A stretch of 59,298 bases of DNA from an uncultured Rhodospirillales bacterium. GTDB lineage: Bacteria; Pseudomonadota; Alphaproteobacteria; RF32; CAG-239. This document shows, one piece after another, positions 2,167-9,304 of the stretch (position 1 is its first letter; each line of letters starts with the position of its first letter). Made by a program: the position numbers and the translations under genes. The notes below the pieces were generated by a model. That model ran no database searches, was not told the DNA's origin, and saw only the letters and a program-made list of their open reading frames with translations. The stretch lies in contig CACWLK010000009.1 in the NCBI GenBank assembly GCA_902761715.1, forward strand, positions 1 to 59,298, read 5' to 3'.

Positions 2167-2269
2167 AAAAAAAGGCTGTCATCTGACAGCCCCGCTAAAC
2201 TCAAACATAATGAAATACAAAAAAGTCCTGCCGACACCTCGACAGGACTTCACCTACTTGTTCCATTAT
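2167..2269. repeat. Direct repeat copy 1 (tandem-terminator element)
   Basis: About 103 bp, nearly identical to 5229-5332 with only a few substitutions. It contains two hairpins: GGCTGTC/GACAGCC (2174-2191) and AAGTCCTG/CAGGACTT (2223-2250). Each is preceded on the plus strand by an A-run, so both are terminators for leftward transcription. This copy lies exactly at the end of the leftward gene at 2266-2637. Together the copies bracket the whole effector island. Confidence 0.85.
2172..2250 (-). terminator. Double intrinsic terminator at the end of the effector island
   Basis: Reading leftward, transcripts meet AAGTCCTG/CAGGACTT followed by T6, then GGCTGTC/GACAGCC followed by T7. Two strong intrinsic terminators in series close the leftward operon after the membrane protein gene. 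Confidence 0.8.
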
Positions 2270-2637
2270 ATCATTTCCAAAAAAACAGCCAAAAACCACA
2301 ACGAAGATAAAAAGATTAACTTTGCTAACGCCGGATGATTTTTCATATTACTAGTTCCTATAAAAAACGTTAACAAAAATATAATCATCGTCAACTTCGT
2401 TATTTCTAAATACGATTGTGTATCGTAATTATACCAGACCTTATTTTTCCATATACTATATTGTTTAGGTGATGGTGATAAATAAAACATCAATAAAACT
2501 GCATAAAATAACATATACGGAAATATATACCATTTAAACTTCCACAAAAGTCTGAATGTTTCTACAACATTCTGTTTTAACAATCGCATAATTTGTTCCA
2601 ATTTTTCTTGCAAAATATTATCCCTCCAAAACTGCAT
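2266..2637 (-). CDS. Small membrane protein, candidate immunity partner
   Basis: An unrecognised product of up to 123 residues with three hydrophobic segments (about residues 37-53, 82-96 and 107-122) and a polar, Tyr-rich loop between the first two. It follows the transpeptidase-like effector gene by 64 nt on the same strand and is the last gene before the double terminator. That is the position expected of an immunity gene. A GGAGG lies inside the first codons, 9 nt before an in-frame TTG at 2613, so the true start may be that TTG. Function is inferred from position only. Confidence 0.6.
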   Translation of the reverse strand: MQFWRDNILQEKLEQIMRLLKQNVVETFRLLWKFKWYIFPYMLFYAVLLMFYLSPSPKQYSIWKNKVWYNYDTQSYLEITKLTMIIFLLTFFIGTSNMKNHPALAKLIFLSSLWFLAVFLEMI

Positions 2638-2701
2638 CTATTCAACTTTTAGAACAACGCGCAAGAAAAGGCAAGGAAATACTCCTTGCCTTGCTCAAAA
2701 A

Positions 2702-3025
2702 CTACCAGTTTTTGGGATATTTTACATATAGTGGCACAGAATCTTGACAATCATCAAGATAATTACTTAATCTCGCTGTTTGCCACGGAATATCAATACA
2801 TCCGGCAGAACCTTTATTCCATCCGCCATGAATAGAAAATCCACTACGACCATAGGTATTAGTATTTTTATCCGGTTGCAACCATACTCGTCTGATTCCC
2901 CATGCAACAGGATTTCCGCTCCAATTACTTTTTTGATTAGAAACAATTCTTAACTTTTCACCCAACTTAAGAGCAATATTTCCAAGGGTTAAACACGGAG
3001 ATTTGTATTCTTGATAAAAATTCAT
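2702..3025 (-). CDS. Short effector with L,D-transpeptidase-like (DUF2778/Tlde1-like) module
   Basis: A 107-residue product. Residues 1-10 (MNFYQEYKSP) are identical to the start of the GH108 effector at 4344-5213. After this the sequence switches to a module with GRSGFSIHGG then GSAGCIDI (His66 and Cys76), the catalytic signature of L,D-transpeptidase-like peptidoglycan enzymes such as Tlde1-type T6SS effectors. The domain looks shortened at its N-terminal side, so activity is uncertain. I chose the start at MNFYQ because the upstream codons encode AAGGAAAAGAG, an ideal Shine-Dalgarno. A terminator hairpin sits directly before it and a small membrane gene follows. Confidence 0.65.
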   Translation of the reverse strand: MNFYQEYKSPCLTLGNIALKLGEKLRIVSNQKSNWSGNPVAWGIRRVWLQPDKNTNTYGRSGFSIHGGWNKGSAGCIDIPWQTARLSNYLDDCQDSVPLYVKYPKNW

Positions 3026-3040
3026 CTCTTTTCCTTTCAT

Positions 3041-3069
3041 AAAAAAAGGAGCTGTTTAATAACAGCTCC
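3041..3069 (-). terminator. Intrinsic terminator directly before an effector ribosome-binding site
   Basis: On the minus strand GGAGCTGTT, a 4-nt loop and AACAGCTCC are followed by T7, which runs straight into the Shine-Dalgarno of the transpeptidase-like effector. The gap between the U-tract and the start codon is too small for a promoter, so that gene needs read-through or a promoter inside the upstream gene. Confidence 0.75.
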
Positions 3070-3096
3070 AAAATTAACATTACATAACAACAAAAA

Positions 3097-3336
3097 TTAA
3101 GAAAAAGGTTCCCCTTTTTCTTTTTTTCTCCTATTTTCCTCCGTTATTGGCACGCAACCAATATTGTCATCCCATGTCAGACAATCATTCCGACACTTCT
3201 TTTGTATTGGATCATAAATTTCACCACTATCAAGACAAGTTACCTTCATATCCAGCTCAAAAAAACAGTATATACTCACTAACAAGATAACAAAGCAAAA
3301 CAGGATATATTTTACAATTTTTCTAATATTTTTCAT
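3097..3336 (-). CDS. Membrane-anchored Cys-rich small protein, candidate immunity partner
   Basis: 79 residues: a basic start, one hydrophobic anchor (about residues 9-28), then an outward-facing segment with four Cys (VTCLDSG, KKCRNDC, IGCVP) that could form two disulfides, and a charged tail. Its start overlaps the end of the broken effector at 3323 by 14 nt, implying translational coupling. A short disulfide-bonded periplasmic protein coupled to an effector fits an immunity protein. No family is recognised, so this role is inference. Confidence 0.6.
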   Translation of the reverse strand: MKNIRKIVKYILFCFVILLVSIYCFFELDMKVTCLDSGEIYDPIQKKCRNDCLTWDDNIGCVPITEENRRKKEKGEPFS

Positions 3337-3840
3337 TTATACCTTTTACTCTTTTATAGCTACATGCACCAACAGAACTAGTATATCGTGGATCATCTAC
3401 CAAAGCACGCCCATAACTATTAATATCTTTGTCATGCCAATAATCCGCTAACGCATCAGGAAACTGTATTCCCTTATAATATCTATTTTTAAAATAATCA
3501 AATACTTCTTTTTCATCTCCCATAATTTTTGCTGTTAATTTTCCCCAGTTTCCTCTTTTTGCTGCCTCATAATTAGCTTTACAATGAAAATAATCATCTG
3601 CTCCTACTGTATTATCTCGTTTCATATCAAAATAATTTCGTGTCATATCTTGAACTGCTCCAACAATTTGTTGCAAAGGAGAATATTTAATTTTTGATTG
3701 TTGATTTTGCACCGGTGTCATATTCATTGCCGGATGATTTTGCACATTCTGCCCGATATTTCTAATTCCGAAACCATATCATTCTCTCCAATCCCCTGTC
3801 GTTGCAAATCAGTTGCCAATCGACGTTCTTTCGTGTTTAA
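3323..3840 (-). pseudogene. 5'-truncated, frameshifted effector with a toxin-like C-terminal module
   Basis: The 3' part encodes an intact reading frame from NHPAMNMTPVQNQQS onward, a linker identical to residues 71-84 of the GH108 effector. It continues into a different C-terminal module (DDYFHCKANYEAAKRG ... DINSYGR ... GACSYKRVKG). From memory this resembles a conserved module at the C-terminus of some Rhs or secreted proteins. Upstream, homology to the GH108 gene continues to NTKERRLA but in a shifted frame, and stops abruptly near 3837, so MNFYQEYKSP and its ribosome-binding site are missing. The only long frame would begin at a GTG that is a Val in the intact copy. It is either a pseudogene or a silent orphan cassette. 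Confidence 0.65.
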
Positions 3841-3843
3841 AGT

Positions 3844-3872
3844 TTGACAACACACTCTAAAATGAATAATAT
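3844..3872 (+). promoter_or_regulatory. Near-consensus promoter of the secreted Cys-rich protein
   Basis: TTGACA (3844-3849), a 17-nt spacer and TAATAT (3867-3872) lie 25 nt before the start at 3898. The -35 begins just 4 nt beyond the point where effector homology ends on the other strand. This is one of the best promoters in the window. Confidence 0.7.
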
Positions 3873-3897
3873 ACTACCTATGTGATGGAGATAGCCT

Positions 3898-4347
3898 ATG
3901 AAATATTTTCTAATACTCTCATTCTTCTGCATAATTGTTTGTTCTAACGCTTTTTGCACAGAAACCACAATTGATACACTCGAAAGAGATTTTATTAATT
4001 GCTCTAATGCATTTAAAAAAATGGAACAAAAATGTCCTGAATCGTGGAGCATGAAATGTTACGACCACCTCATGTCTGCTCATAAGACCACTCAACAATG
4101 CTTTCGCAAAACTGCCATAGAATTATTTGAGAAATTTTACGGATTATCAAATAGTGAAGCCCAAAAAAAAATTGATGATTTTAATAAATTTATATATGAC
4201 CAATACCTTTTTATATTTTCTGAAACAGATTTTTGCAAAAAAAACAATTGTGGTATATCCTTATACTTATATAGCGAATATACCACAACTGAGCAATTAC
4301 AATATTATGTAAATAAAATAATTAGATCTATATCTGCTAGAAACTAA
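3898..4347 (+). CDS. Secreted six-Cys protein, candidate immunity to the GH108 effector
   Basis: 149 residues with a Sec signal peptide (about residues 1-20, ending SNAFCTE). The mature part carries six Cys (INC, EQKC, MKC, QQC, DFC, NNC) and is mainly helical and polar. It would fold in the periplasm with disulfides. It is convergent with the GH108 effector and overlaps its last codons by 4 nt, yet has its own near-consensus promoter. Constant expression of a periplasmic antidote against a cell-wall hydrolase would explain that layout. The size and Cys pattern recall lysozyme-inhibitor-like proteins, but I recognise no specific family. Confidence 0.6.
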   Translation: MKYFLILSFFCIIVCSNAFCTETTIDTLERDFINCSNAFKKMEQKCPESWSMKCYDHLMSAHKTTQQCFRKTAIELFEKFYGLSNSEAQKKIDDFNKFIYDQYLFIFSETDFCKKNNCGISLYLYSEYTTTEQLQYYVNKIIRSISARN

Positions 4348-5213
4348 TATTCTCCATATCTTTTTCTATGCCCCTTTTCAAATATTATTTGTGATGGATT
4401 TCTTCTCTGATATTGATCTTCTACCTTATTTACATTGTTTATAAAATCTGTTCTTATATTCTTATAATTTGTATTTTTAGAAGCCGCTAAAGTATCTGAA
4501 CCAATTATACCGTCAGCCTTTACCCCCAGGGCTTTTTGCAAATTCATAATTGCTGTTGACTGTCCCTGCACAACTCCATTATCAAAAACAATATTAGCAA
4601 AATCATCAGGAAGTTGATTTATTTTTGGCTTTAACCAATAATCTCTATAATATATCGCATCGGCTCTTTCTTTTGTCATATTTTTAATGTCCTCACTTGG
4701 ATAAACTCGAGAGCTTATACCATAATTAGTAGCACCTCCCCTATCATTTGGGTGATTAACATAACCACCCTCGTTTTTTCTTGTCCTCATCATTGCTTTT
4801 TGAAAACGAGTATCATTTAGCATTTGATTAATAAATTCATGACTGAACCCTTCTCCATAACGGGCATAATTAACTGGCTGAAAATTTTGTACACCACCTT
4901 CGACCAAACGCATACCATTTTGTTGTAACATAACATTGGTTTCCGCTTGTTGACTTGGTGCTGATTGTTGATTTTGCACCGGTGTCATATTCATTGCCGG
5001 ATGATTTTGCACATTCTGCCCGATATTTCTAATTCCGAAACCATAATTATTTTCGCTGTTATTTGCCAATCGACGTTCTTTCGTGTTTCTTGCTGTTTGA
5101 TACTCCAGCTCATCTCGAGTATCAAAACCTCTATGGTCAACACCATAACTATCTATCCCGTTTGTACCTGTCTGGTACCCAAACGGAGACTTGTATTCTT
5201 GATAAAAATTCAT
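4344..5213 (-). CDS. Modular effector with GH108 muramidase and peptidoglycan-binding domain
   Basis: 289 residues. A disordered N-terminus starts MNFYQEYKSP and includes a Gln/Asn/Pro-rich linker (NHPAMNMTPVQNQQS, about 71-84). A GH108 glycosidase domain follows, with catalytic Glu148 in KNEGGYVNHPNDRGGATNYG (about 146-165), then a C-terminal PG_binding_3-type domain (VFDNGVVQG, LGVKADGIIG). GH108 enzymes cut the glycan of peptidoglycan and usually act as phage endolysins or secretion-system effectors. There is no signal peptide and no holin nearby, and the N-terminal pieces recur on other toxic modules. That argues for a delivered effector rather than a prophage remnant. The start was set by the AAGGAAAAGAG ribosome-binding site. 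Confidence 0.75.
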   Translation of the reverse strand: MNFYQEYKSPFGYQTGTNGIDSYGVDHRGFDTRDELEYQTARNTKERRLANNSENNYGFGIRNIGQNVQNHPAMNMTPVQNQQSAPSQQAETNVMLQQNGMRLVEGGVQNFQPVNYARYGEGFSHEFINQMLNDTRFQKAMMRTRKNEGGYVNHPNDRGGATNYGISSRVYPSEDIKNMTKERADAIYYRDYWLKPKINQLPDDFANIVFDNGVVQGQSTAIMNLQKALGVKADGIIGSDTLAASKNTNYKNIRTDFINNVNKVEDQYQRRNPSQIIFEKGHRKRYGEY

Positions 5214-5228
5214 CTCTTTTCCTTTCAT

Positions 5229-5332
5229 AAAAAAAGGCTGTCATCTGACAGCCCCTGTTAAACTCAAACATAATGAAATACAAAAAAGTCCTGCCGACAC
5301 ATCGACAGGACTTCACCCACTTGTTCCATTAT
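5229..5332. repeat. Direct repeat copy 2 (tandem-terminator element)
   Basis: A near-identical copy of 2167-2269. Here the two leftward terminators (5236-5253 and 5286-5313) are not behind a gene. They stand between a putative leftward promoter and the start of the GH108 effector. Either they are the relic end of a lost upstream cassette, or they act as an attenuator in the effector's leader. Confidence 0.85.
5234..5313 (-). terminator. Double intrinsic terminator in the GH108 effector leader
   Basis: The hairpins AAGTCCTG/CAGGACTT plus T6 and GGCTGTC/GACAGCC plus T7 are in series and read leftward. The U-tract of the second abuts the effector's Shine-Dalgarno. A transcript from the promoter at 5341-5369 would have to pass both. 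Confidence 0.7.
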
Positions 5333-5451: not shown

Positions 5452-7584
<2,133 letters not shown>

Positions 7585-7589
7585 ATCAA

Positions 7590-7853
7590 TCACATAATCA
7601 TAAAAGTCTTGGCAAAAACCGACAACCACTCCTCTATTCCGTCATTAATCATTCGCCGAAATTGTTTGATTAAATTGTCATCATCACTTCCCAAAAAATC
7701 ACCTAAGTCCTCATCGCTCAAGCCATCGACATAGTCCGCAAACGCAAATACTAAATTTGTATTATACGAATATTCACCCTCATTTTTAAATTTGTTCTGC
7801 TCAAAGAAAAACCATAATTCATCGGCCTTTTCTTTCATTTTTTCATATGTCAT
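7590..7853 (-). CDS. Small acidic hypothetical protein
   Basis: 87 residues, no signal peptide or membrane segment, predicted mostly helical and strongly acidic in the middle (DGLSDEDLGDFLGSDDDN). It is convergent with ligA, ending 5 nt from it. The start is ATG with weak upstream purines. Nothing in the sequence suggests a function. The reading frame is well used and there is no competing gene on the other strand, which supports it being real. Confidence 0.55.
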   Translation of the reverse strand: MTYEKMKEKADELWFFFEQNKFKNEGEYSYNTNLVFAFADYVDGLSDEDLGDFLGSDDDNLIKQFRRMINDGIEEWLSVFAKTFMIM

Positions 7854-7985
7854 TGTCGCCCCTAAAAATACATTTTATGTATCTAATATAATTTACACAA
7901 AATGTATTATCAAGACCGAAATAAATTTAATTGATTTTTTACTTCCTTAGCGTAAATTATAATTAGTATTTTAGGGAGAAACACC

Positions 7986-8501
7986 ATGTGGAAAAAATTA
8001 CTTACAACAGTTACCGTAGCAGCTCTTTGCACCTGCAACGCCTACGCCCAATCTTTTGACAGACCTCAAGAGGGCTCAGCCATACAGGCCGATTACGACT
8101 TTGACCAAACCGCATACAACAATTGCATTTCGCAAATTACAAACGGCAGCGGTCCTGCCTATGTCGGTTGTATTAATCAGGAGCTCAAACGCCAGGAAAG
8201 CGCAATGGCATTCTTCTATAACGAACTGCTTAAACAACAACAATATCAAAAATGGAATAATGGGAAAGACCTAAACAGCGGCAACATTAAAGATATGAAT
8301 GATCAATTTATCGGTTATCGCGACCGTTTGTGCTCAATGTTTGCTATCGGTATGATGAACTTTTACCAAAACATTGAATGGGGCAGAAAAGACTGTATGA
8401 TGAAAGTAAACGACGAAATGCTCCGTCGCCTGCAACGCTTCTATGGCGAAAGTCTTGCTGACTTCTCCCACTTTGAAGACTTTGATCCGGGTACAATCTA
8501 A
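7986..8501 (+). CDS. LprI-like periplasmic lysozyme inhibitor family protein
   Basis: 171 residues with a Sec signal peptide (to about NAYA, residue 21). The mature region has the Cys spacing of the LprI/DUF1311 family: YNNCISQ, YVGCINQEL, YRDRLCSMF, RKDCMMKVNDEM, where a helical bundle is held by disulfides. M. tuberculosis LprI inhibits host lysozyme; most members are only inferred to do so. A good GGGAGA ribosome-binding site precedes the ATG. Standing close to the peptidoglycan-hydrolase island it could contribute to wall-hydrolase tolerance, but it has no operon link to it. Confidence 0.65.
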   Translation: MWKKLLTTVTVAALCTCNAYAQSFDRPQEGSAIQADYDFDQTAYNNCISQITNGSGPAYVGCINQELKRQESAMAFFYNELLKQQQYQKWNNGKDLNSGNIKDMNDQFIGYRDRLCSMFAIGMMNFYQNIEWGRKDCMMKVNDEMLRRLQRFYGESLADFSHFEDFDPGTI

Positions 8502-8506
8502 ACTTA

Positions 8507-9304
8507 TTATAGACCAAACAAACGGCTTCCTACCGGTTGAGGCAACTCAAAATACCAACCGTCATAAAGGAAGCCGTTATTTTTTACAAATTCATATGCC
8601 TCAACTGTCGGCATTACACTGGTGTCAAGAGCCACGTTCACCCAATAACTATGATTTCTCGTCAACACCGTAAGCCTTATAATTATACCGTTACGCATTT
8701 CAATCCTGATATTTTTTGATGCCCAATCTTCAAAATCATTTTTTTGCGTAACTTGATAGAAAATCAGATCATCAAAACTGAAATCCTGCGGCTCTATTCC
8801 GCTTATTTCCTCCACATCAGTATCATTCAACTTTATCAACGGCTGTACAAACCATTGATACGGTTGTGCCGGCACGGCAAAATTTCCGTTCAACACTTCG
8901 TTTGGCTCATTATACAAAACCGTAATTCTGTCTGTTTTTCCGGCTTCTTCATCAAAGAACAGACTAATTTTTTCTCTATCGCCTGCTGACAAAACAATCT
9001 TGTCTTTTCCTTCAACATTTGCATTGTTTTTTTCTGCATGCAACGCCGCATTTTGCAGGCTTGCCACAAGCTCATCAACCATCTGATTATTTACCGGATA
9101 ATAGTCGTCATCACGGCTGCACCAAATTCCGTCTTTACGTACAATCATAATCCCGTCATTGACTTTTAGTGATTTTACATCATTCAGCAGCACTGACAAC
9201 TTCATTTCTTCATTATAAAAAGAAGGTATGTTTTTCATAATCAACAATACCATGCCGCTTAGGATCAACAGCCCCGACAGCGTTATCAAAAGCTTTTTAT
9301 TCAT
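8507..9304 (-). CDS. DUF4340-like membrane-anchored protein of a Gld-type ABC operon
   Basis: 265 residues: a single N-terminal membrane anchor (about residues 5-24) and a large periplasmic domain of beta-rich repeats of the DUF4340 type (short VNDGIMIVRKDGIW-like strands). Its start overlaps the stop of the permease-GldG fusion by 4 nt, so the two are translationally coupled. Genes of this type commonly follow gldA/gldFG-like ABC transporters outside Bacteroidetes. The likely role is an accessory subunit on the outer face of that transporter. Substrate unknown. Confidence 0.65.
   Translation of the reverse strand: MNKKLLITLSGLLILSGMVLLIMKNIPSFYNEEMKLSVLLNDVKSLKVNDGIMIVRKDGIWCSRDDDYYPVNNQMVDELVASLQNAALHAEKNNANVEGKDKIVLSAGDREKISLFFDEEAGKTDRITVLYNEPNEVLNGNFAVPAQPYQWFVQPLIKLNDTDVEEISGIEPQDFSFDDLIFYQVTQKNDFEDWASKNIRIEMRNGIIIRLTVLTRNHSYWVNVALDTSVMPTVEAYEFVKNNGFLYDGWYFELPQPVGSRLFGL

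Follow-up and report, generated by a model that had tools for sequence, protein, structure and literature searches.

A predicted polymorphic-toxin island in an uncultured Rhodospirillales bacterium and the association of its leader family with a podovirus-like element

Architecture of the island

The stretch analyzed here (the window; 59,298 nucleotides) is contig C9 (CACWLK010000009.1) of a 1.43-Mb genome in 26 contigs from an uncultured Rhodospirillales bacterium. An island at positions 2167–5332, between infC and ligA (both gene names assigned by eye), carries on its minus strand a leader-bearing gene with a GH108 muramidase module, a serum amyloid A (SAA)-like module, and a Tlde1 module, with one small neighbor for each. 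The neighbor of the GH108 module lies on the plus strand, unlike the other two. We read the island as a polymorphic-toxin locus on three features of its genes: a shared N-terminus found on many C-termini, the presence of adjoining neighbor genes, and orphan cassettes homologous to a complete gene.

The gene at 4344–5228 (minus strand, 294 amino acids (aa)) appears to be a complete polymorphic toxin formed by a leader, a linker, and the GH108 module (PF05838, E 9e-24; phrog_315, endolysin, E 4e-41). The leader match spans 5049–5213 and omits the middle of the family consensus, with positions 1–54 and 72–92 of the hidden Markov model (HMM) matched, and the catalytic residue Glu148 is in place. 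Its predicted immunity gene (3898–4347, plus strand) is convergent, encodes a secreted, Cys-containing protein, and has homologs convergent to GH108 leader genes. The SAA module (3323–3745, minus strand, 140 aa; PF00277, E 3e-20) is an orphan of the prok-SAA/Lipocone type whose leader is truncated at the 5′ end and frame-broken; its open reading frame (ORF) starts at a GTG within the linker, and the upstream leader fragment lies in a different frame. The adjoining gene (3097–3336, minus strand), with one transmembrane (TM) segment, a four-Cys motif, and homologs beside SAA-type modules, is its predicted immunity gene. The Tlde1 (L,D-transpeptidase-like) module (2702–3040, minus strand, 112 aa) follows 10 leader residues and is truncated: it aligns to positions 51–97 of 120 in PF10908 (E 4e-4, under Pfam's cut-off), and comparison with the full-length proteins of loci L059 and L064 indicates that the His and Cys are retained and, relative to L059, the N-terminal part of the domain is absent. 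The 112-aa protein has its catalytic residues at His71 and Cys81, which are 66 and 76 when numbered from MNFY; all three catalytic residues named in the initial annotation are found where it placed them. A membrane protein (2266–2637, minus strand) with homologs downstream of Tlde1 leader toxins is the predicted immunity protein of this module.

Repeats tie the three modules together. MNFYQEYKSP forms the N-terminus of both the 294-aa and the 112-aa protein, and a 55-nt repeat covers the two start regions (5183–5237 at the GH108 gene and 2995–3049 at the Tlde1 module, 98% identical). The GH108 gene and the SAA orphan share an 84-bp linker/leader repeat (4962–5045 and 3695–3778, 100% identical), inside which the NHPAMNMTPVQNQQS stretch falls, and a 26-bp leader repeat (5063–5088 and 3813–3838, 100% identical); together, this identity is far above chance. 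The joining of shared N-terminal pieces to unrelated C-termini described in the initial annotation is thus borne out, as are the bracketing 103-bp repeats, whose left (2167–2269) and right (5229–5332) copies are 96% identical. The right copy contains two hairpins and a T-run and looks terminator-like by eye. A search of the genome found no third full copy, only one weak 23-bp match on contig C4. The claim of three genes with shared N-termini needs qualification: the pieces are shared, but the leader start is intact only in the GH108 gene, and the other two genes are orphan or truncated. As judged from these genes, the island comprises one complete toxin and two spare or decayed cassettes, each of which has kept its neighbor gene.

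The SAA module, which the initial annotation left without an assignment, does not belong to the proposed set of peptidoglycan-attacking C-termini. It matches SAA chains in the PDB (E 9e-13), its AlphaFold model (predicted local distance difference test, pLDDT, 86) superimposes on SAA structures with Foldseek TM-scores of 0.81–0.89 depending on the target, and only SAA structures match the model above noise. Asp50, His54, Glu80, Asp105, and Gly112 are invariant across 20 relatives, with His54, Glu80, and Asp105 placed on the second, third, and fourth helix of the model. The module thus combines the SAA domain and fold with the active-site His, Glu, and Asp on helices 2–4, in agreement with the His/Glu/Asp set of the Lipocone active site given in PMC12419801. 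The domain is predicted to act on lipid head groups rather than peptidoglycan. The same work (Burroughs et al. 2025, PMC12419801) already describes SAA domains as toxin tips and, coupled to prok-SAA, an antidote with four Cys, and the SAA part of the island is therefore not new; the conserved His/Glu/Asp and the 3097–3336 neighbor fit that description, and neither this leader nor a link to a podovirus-like element is described in the sections consulted.

A leader family with exchangeable modules and paired neighbors

The leader (leader 1) measures ~90 aa and has no Sec-like signal by eye. It is present in 8/13 genomes of the genus (the match in G007 is weak) and in 64/153 genomes of the order, where 249 matches are spread over 6/17 genera with up to 17 per genome. 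Hence, the N-terminal pieces are not confined to a single occurrence, the outcome that the initial annotation had named as speaking against its proposal. A scan of one genome per species (84,980 species) returned 111 relatives, and the best 80 (78 loci) were kept; their titles name uncultured Alphaproteobacteria, proteobacterium, or Azospirillum metagenome-assembled genomes, several of them from rumen or feces. Two scans of IMG/VR viral contigs returned no relative of the leader.

We collected 122 distinct leader-bearing ORFs from 98 sequences, 99 of which start at the leader's start. Among these 99, 84 are ≥130 aa, or 82 once near-identical ones are removed. A first clustering of the C-termini was dropped because low-complexity linkers merged 70 of the 82 proteins. 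The final clustering used the last 130 residues and resolved 76 leader proteins of ≥170 aa into 16 clusters, six of them holding a single protein; single linkage may still join subfamilies, as in CL0, which contains several Lipocone-like types. The clusters include 27 SAA-like/Lipocone, 10 GH108, 9 Tlde1, and 8 lysozyme-like proteins, with a Pesticin domain (PF16754) in the single lysozyme-like member scanned (L049). Other modules are of the SLT and VgrG3-like (PF21277) types, three look membrane-inserting by eye, and those of L070 and L078 have no Pfam match. Asn/Gly-rich linkers join leader and module. Representatives bear domains with established antibacterial or wall-cutting activity, and the activities recognized among the modules are extracytoplasmic.

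Homologs of the island's three small genes adjoin the same module types in other loci, in agreement with the small membrane or secreted neighbor that the initial annotation assigned to each module. In L118, L126, and L132, a homolog of 3898–4347 (53–62% identity) converges on a GH108 leader gene; the exception is L100, where no adjoining GH108 ORF is seen. Homologs of 3097–3336 adjoin SAA-type modules on C41 (67%) and in L128, L098, L101, L230, and L153–L156; the exception is L213, where a four-Cys gene has no SAA neighbor. In L059 and L064, tandem homologs of 2266–2637 (35–65%) follow a Tlde1 leader toxin, and more homologs, counted irrespective of the adjoining module, are found in L068, L071, L095, L218, and others. 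Across the family, 69 leader genes had enough flanking sequence to be scored; by a hydrophobicity rule alone, a TM or secreted neighbor accompanies 61 of them, compared with 130 among 353 controls (ORFs; Fisher p 8e-16). The geometry follows the module: Lipocone-like toxins have a membrane neighbor on the same strand in 25/25 cases, GH108 toxins a convergent neighbor in 8/9, and lysozyme-like toxins a convergent neighbor in 7/8, with 5 of the 8 lysozyme-like ones passing the hydrophobicity rule. We regard the adjoining small genes as putative antidotes in the membrane or periplasm and the modules as predicted toxins. The breadth of the leader, the 16 C-terminal clusters, and the neighbor excess in this survey of relatives support the polymorphic-toxin logic suggested at the outset.

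Association with a podovirus-like element

No structural gene is recognized within the island itself, and the match to a prophage lysis or tail module foreseen as a counter-case in the initial annotation does not apply there; elsewhere, however, leader genes adjoin a podovirus-like element. In G006, leader genes lie on both sides of a podovirus-like cluster adjoining tolQRA (by eye) that encodes a terminase, portal, scaffold-like protein, capsid, tail, S74 protein, fiber, and cI-type repressor. The element's portal is found in 87/153 genomes of the order and its stopper in 89/153, spanning 7/17 genera, and 84 of the 87 portal-positive genomes have a single portal match. PHROG families in the element include repressor, terminase, portal, capsid, tail, spanin (G000), and endolysin (G134). 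Apart from a weak match of the repressor to phrog_296, no integrase or replication family turned up among the 28 element or flank ORFs scanned against PHROG, a subset of all ORFs there. The repressor end abuts tol genes in G000 (where the element is on C8), G001, G002, G006, and G008, and at the opposite end a similar pair of ABC transporter and U32-type peptidase genes adjoins it in G000, G001, and G002 (all flanks by eye). Portal and LigA identities correlate within the genus (rho 0.90, n 8). The element is possibly domesticated in the manner of a gene transfer agent (GTA). A query of IMG/VR with the capsid alone, which finds close relatives only, returned one remote relative at 30% identity.

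Leader and element occur together in 60 of the 153 genomes; 4 have the leader alone, 31 the element alone, and 58 neither. The element is thus present in 60/64 leader-positive versus 31/89 leader-negative genomes (Fisher p 2e-14, uncorrected for kinship). At least seven genomes (G002, G006, G053, G054, G107, G111, and G134) carry a same-strand leader gene 1–10 kb downstream of the stopper, against ~1 leader gene in all expected for a 12-kb span; some of these genes are broken, truncated, or short. Both features are absent together from G012, a close relative (LigA 93%, TolA 96%), in which no element separates tolA from the ABC transporter, no toxin modules lie between infC and ligA, and neither leader 1 nor leader 2 (see below) is matched. 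The element is present in G001, which is about as close (LigA 96%, TolA 95%), and G003, of the same genus, lacks both element and leader.

Predicted toxin–antidote pairs also lie within the virion operon in g1, g7, and g12 genomes. G002 has an SAA toxin and four-Cys neighbor between groES and terL, and in G063, G064, G065, and G074, which are mutually alike, an SAA toxin and four-Cys antidote pair follows the portal gene. In G096, a Lipocone-like protein (recognized by our own HMM, with no Pfam match) and TM genes follow f194. Immediately before the S74 gene of this genome lies a gene for a GH108 protein, accompanied by a convergent lipoprotein-like gene (by eye); the GH108 protein shares the first 11 residues of the S74 protein. 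A domain of the membrane modules in clusters CL5 and CL8 recurs in large proteins whose genes lie in the element or next to it in G143, G002, and a human fecal scaffold. Large proteins of 677 aa and 327 aa adjoin the S74 gene in G143 (C11, L214).

A second leader, leader 2, occurs in 27/153 genomes, 25 of which carry the element. In G000 it heads Tlde1, Lipocone-like, and membrane-type (by eye) proteins ~5 kb from the element; the leader (MPDTTYEYLQG...) is carried by three proteins with TM neighbors on the element's contig (L203/L204, G000:C8, about 6152–8877). In G096, a leader-2 HMM built with the target left out matches a protein of the MuF/gp7 type whose gene is flanked by terL and groES (E 3e-8 in a set of 6413 ORFs). 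The gp7 protein of phage SPP1 binds the portal and resides in the capsid (PMC5576092). The case for packaging is strongest for leader 2; for leader 1, the window's own leader, packaging is suggested only by its association with the element. The gene separating tolA from the element (L229:3409–4092 and homologs) encodes a membrane protein that resembles a leader-2 Tlde1 toxin by BLAST and is kept in G012, which lacks the element. A third leader is common to two proteins of MT838567 (L228, 1788–2708 and 3541–4347), which have secreted convergent neighbors; the one scanned is VgrG3/GH46-like, and among the loci compared this leader was seen in MT838567 alone.

Possible modes of deployment and known systems

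The island would be one site of a polymorphic system of antibacterial toxins spread through the lineage, in which a conserved leader is joined to exchangeable modules whose apparent targets are peptidoglycan, lipid head groups (for SAA/Lipocone), or membranes into which they would insert. Spare cassettes behind the complete gene could be swapped in by recombination because they carry stretches identical to its linker. The leader would act as a tag for deployment with the podovirus-like, possibly domesticated element, a proposal that we hold to be about evenly balanced between right and wrong. Whether their genes lie in cis or in trans, the toxins would be produced together with the virion proteins and ride in or on the particle, and lysis would release them onto kin without the antidote; they would probably sit inside the virus-derived particle. 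We advance more tentatively the bolder version, in which a particle kept in the chromosome of a gut alphaproteobacterial family is a reusable weapon whose leader tags load toxins encoded across the genome for injection into the periplasm of kin, with some tags common to the element's own capsid proteins and with the wall- and lipid-cutting set, SAA relatives included, as the cargo.

Several observations weigh against the main proposal of deployment with the element. G060 (100% complete) and G071, G083, and G141 (59–88% complete) have leaders and no element match, 31 element-positive genomes have no leader 1, and part of the association could stem from shared ancestry. Linkage is seen in just 7 of the 60 genomes with leader and element among the matches listed, and none of the window's leader genes shares a contig with the element. 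The match between leader 2 and the MuF protein is short (34 aa, 38%). Searched against the other ORFs of the element loci, leader 1 matched only leader ORFs, and its structural model (pLDDT 79) has no counterpart in the PDB, nor one in BFVD at E 0.001. As for domestication, the order-wide correlation between portal and LigA identities is moderate (rho 0.44, n 77), and the repressor weakly matches phrog_296, of the integration/excision class (E 0.0085). The element sits at different sites in G010 and in G053/G054, G143 (C11, L214) has three portal matches, and the nearest relative in phage collections is filed as a phage (MT835830, 58%, human fecal); therefore, the element may be an active prophage, and domestication is not proved.

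A serious rival, which we rate as rather unlikely, is that the toxins are colicin-like bacteriocins, the leader being a disordered receptor-binding and translocation region for entry into kin and the lysis genes of the element merely releasing the proteins. The module set does resemble that of periplasm-acting bacteriocins (the Pesticin domain in L049 and the membrane-type modules by eye), the linkers are rich in Asn and Gly, the element has an endolysin (G134) and a spanin (G000), and leader genes come after the endolysin gene in G134 and, with the endolysin assigned by eye, in G053. Against a bacteriocin role stand the sharing of leader 2 with a MuF-type protein and the toxin modules among terL, groES, portal, and capsid genes, and six genera sharing one leader is broad for a single receptor. 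The virion-operon pairs of g1, g7, and g12 also bear on a reading that we consider unlikely, namely that the toxins use an unrecognized secretion route and that the element is unrelated, the two being inherited or lost jointly through shared ancestry. The lack of kinship correction and the fact that most leader genes are unlinked to the element among the matches listed favor it; these operon pairs, the joint absence in G012 and G003 within the genus, and the at least seven genomes with linked same-strand leader genes, against ~1 expected, oppose it.

A hybrid type IV secretion system (T4SS) appears highly improbable as the route. Such a cluster exists (L139, G000:C3:40000–58000; VirB4, a VirB2-like pilin, TcpQ, PilO, and secretin), VirB4 is found in 127/153 genomes of the order, G000 included, and T4SS toxins acting against bacteria exist in Xanthomonas. 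VirB4 shows no association with the leader (50/64 leader-positive versus 77/89 leader-negative genomes, p 0.19), G006 and G061 have no VirB4 match despite 12 and 17 leader matches, and the tag is N-terminal. It is also very unlikely that the genes are decayed prophage lysis enzymes or superinfection-exclusion morons rather than antibacterial weapons. In family searches the GH108 protein is classed with phage endolysins and, weakly and far under cut-off, with holin-associated muramidases, and a superinfection-immunity family gene lies at 1583–1900; the SAA, Tlde1, and VgrG3-type modules with their specific neighbors are unlike endolysin sets, one leader is kept across dissimilar modules, and the G134 element has a separate endolysin. 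The type VI secretion system (T6SS) was rejected as the vehicle on one marker, the sheath gene VipB (PF05943), found in 0/13 genus genomes with other T6SS genes not searched; a control search matched VipB in E. coli (1/14).

Several known systems share some of these features. In the MuF polymorphic toxins of temperate phages (Jamet et al. 2017, PMC5576092), too, an N-terminal domain linked to phages precedes toxic C-termini that vary, a small gene follows, and leader 2 heads a MuF-type protein in G096. They differ in that the window's toxins and leader 1 have no MuF match, that the modules recognized here are predicted to act outside the cytoplasm, and that the toxins here are often encoded away from an element that is syntenic in part of the genus. 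Gene transfer agents and viriforms (PMC9662315) resemble the element as an alphaproteobacterial, phage-derived head–tail cluster that is single-copy, syntenic in part of the genus, and without an integrase family detected among the ORFs scanned. The element differs in its podovirus-like gene set with toxin–antidote inserts, and its DNA packaging and transfer and its vertical descent are putative. Among the Alphaproteobacteria, RcGTA and BaGTA are gene transfer agents. Contact-dependent inhibition (CDI)/Rhs systems have orphan toxin–immunity cassettes, in which a spare C-terminal module is homologous to the complete gene over a short stretch and comes with an antidote of its own, and the island's spare modules are alike in both respects; the leader is short here where CDI/Rhs has a giant exoprotein, and none of the proteins scanned matched an Rhs or CdiA family. 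Tlde1 and VgrG3-type proteins function as T6SS effectors, and the same catalytic modules (named from Pfam) occur here in a setting where all 13 genus genomes are without a VipB match. Toxins with SAA tips and phage toxins of the MuF type are already known; literature searches of titles and abstract starts found neither the leader family nor its vehicle, nor a name for this toxin family.

If correct, the proposal would add a vehicle to bacterial warfare, a short-tailed phage-like particle that is neither a contractile tail nor a secretion machine and that accepts polymorphic toxins via leader tags, trans-encoded effectors included. We know of no described antagonism system in these uncultured gut and rumen bacteria. 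Protein cargo besides DNA in chromosomally kept phage particles would become testable, and SAA-type toxins with four-Cys antidotes would gain a defined delivery setting, which bears on the proposal that serum amyloid A of animals originated in bacteria.

Two human fecal scaffolds are labeled 'Bacteriophage sp.'; one carries the element and the other looks chromosomal, no more than a hint that host DNA might be packaged. Sequencing of virus-like particles (VLPs) was rejected as proof of particles, since the two records state only 'human fecal samples, Mexico'; a Mexican virome study prepared DNase-treated VLPs (PMC8361208), and 'MT83' is absent from the accessible text of that study. Just outside the island, the minus-strand gene at 1583–1900 encodes the superinfection-immunity family protein (PF14373, E 2e-15; phrog_1039). 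The site upstream of ligA that holds the island in the window is occupied in G003 (C43, L261, 1581–3191) by a gene for a 536-aa protein that looks serine recombinase-like by eye.

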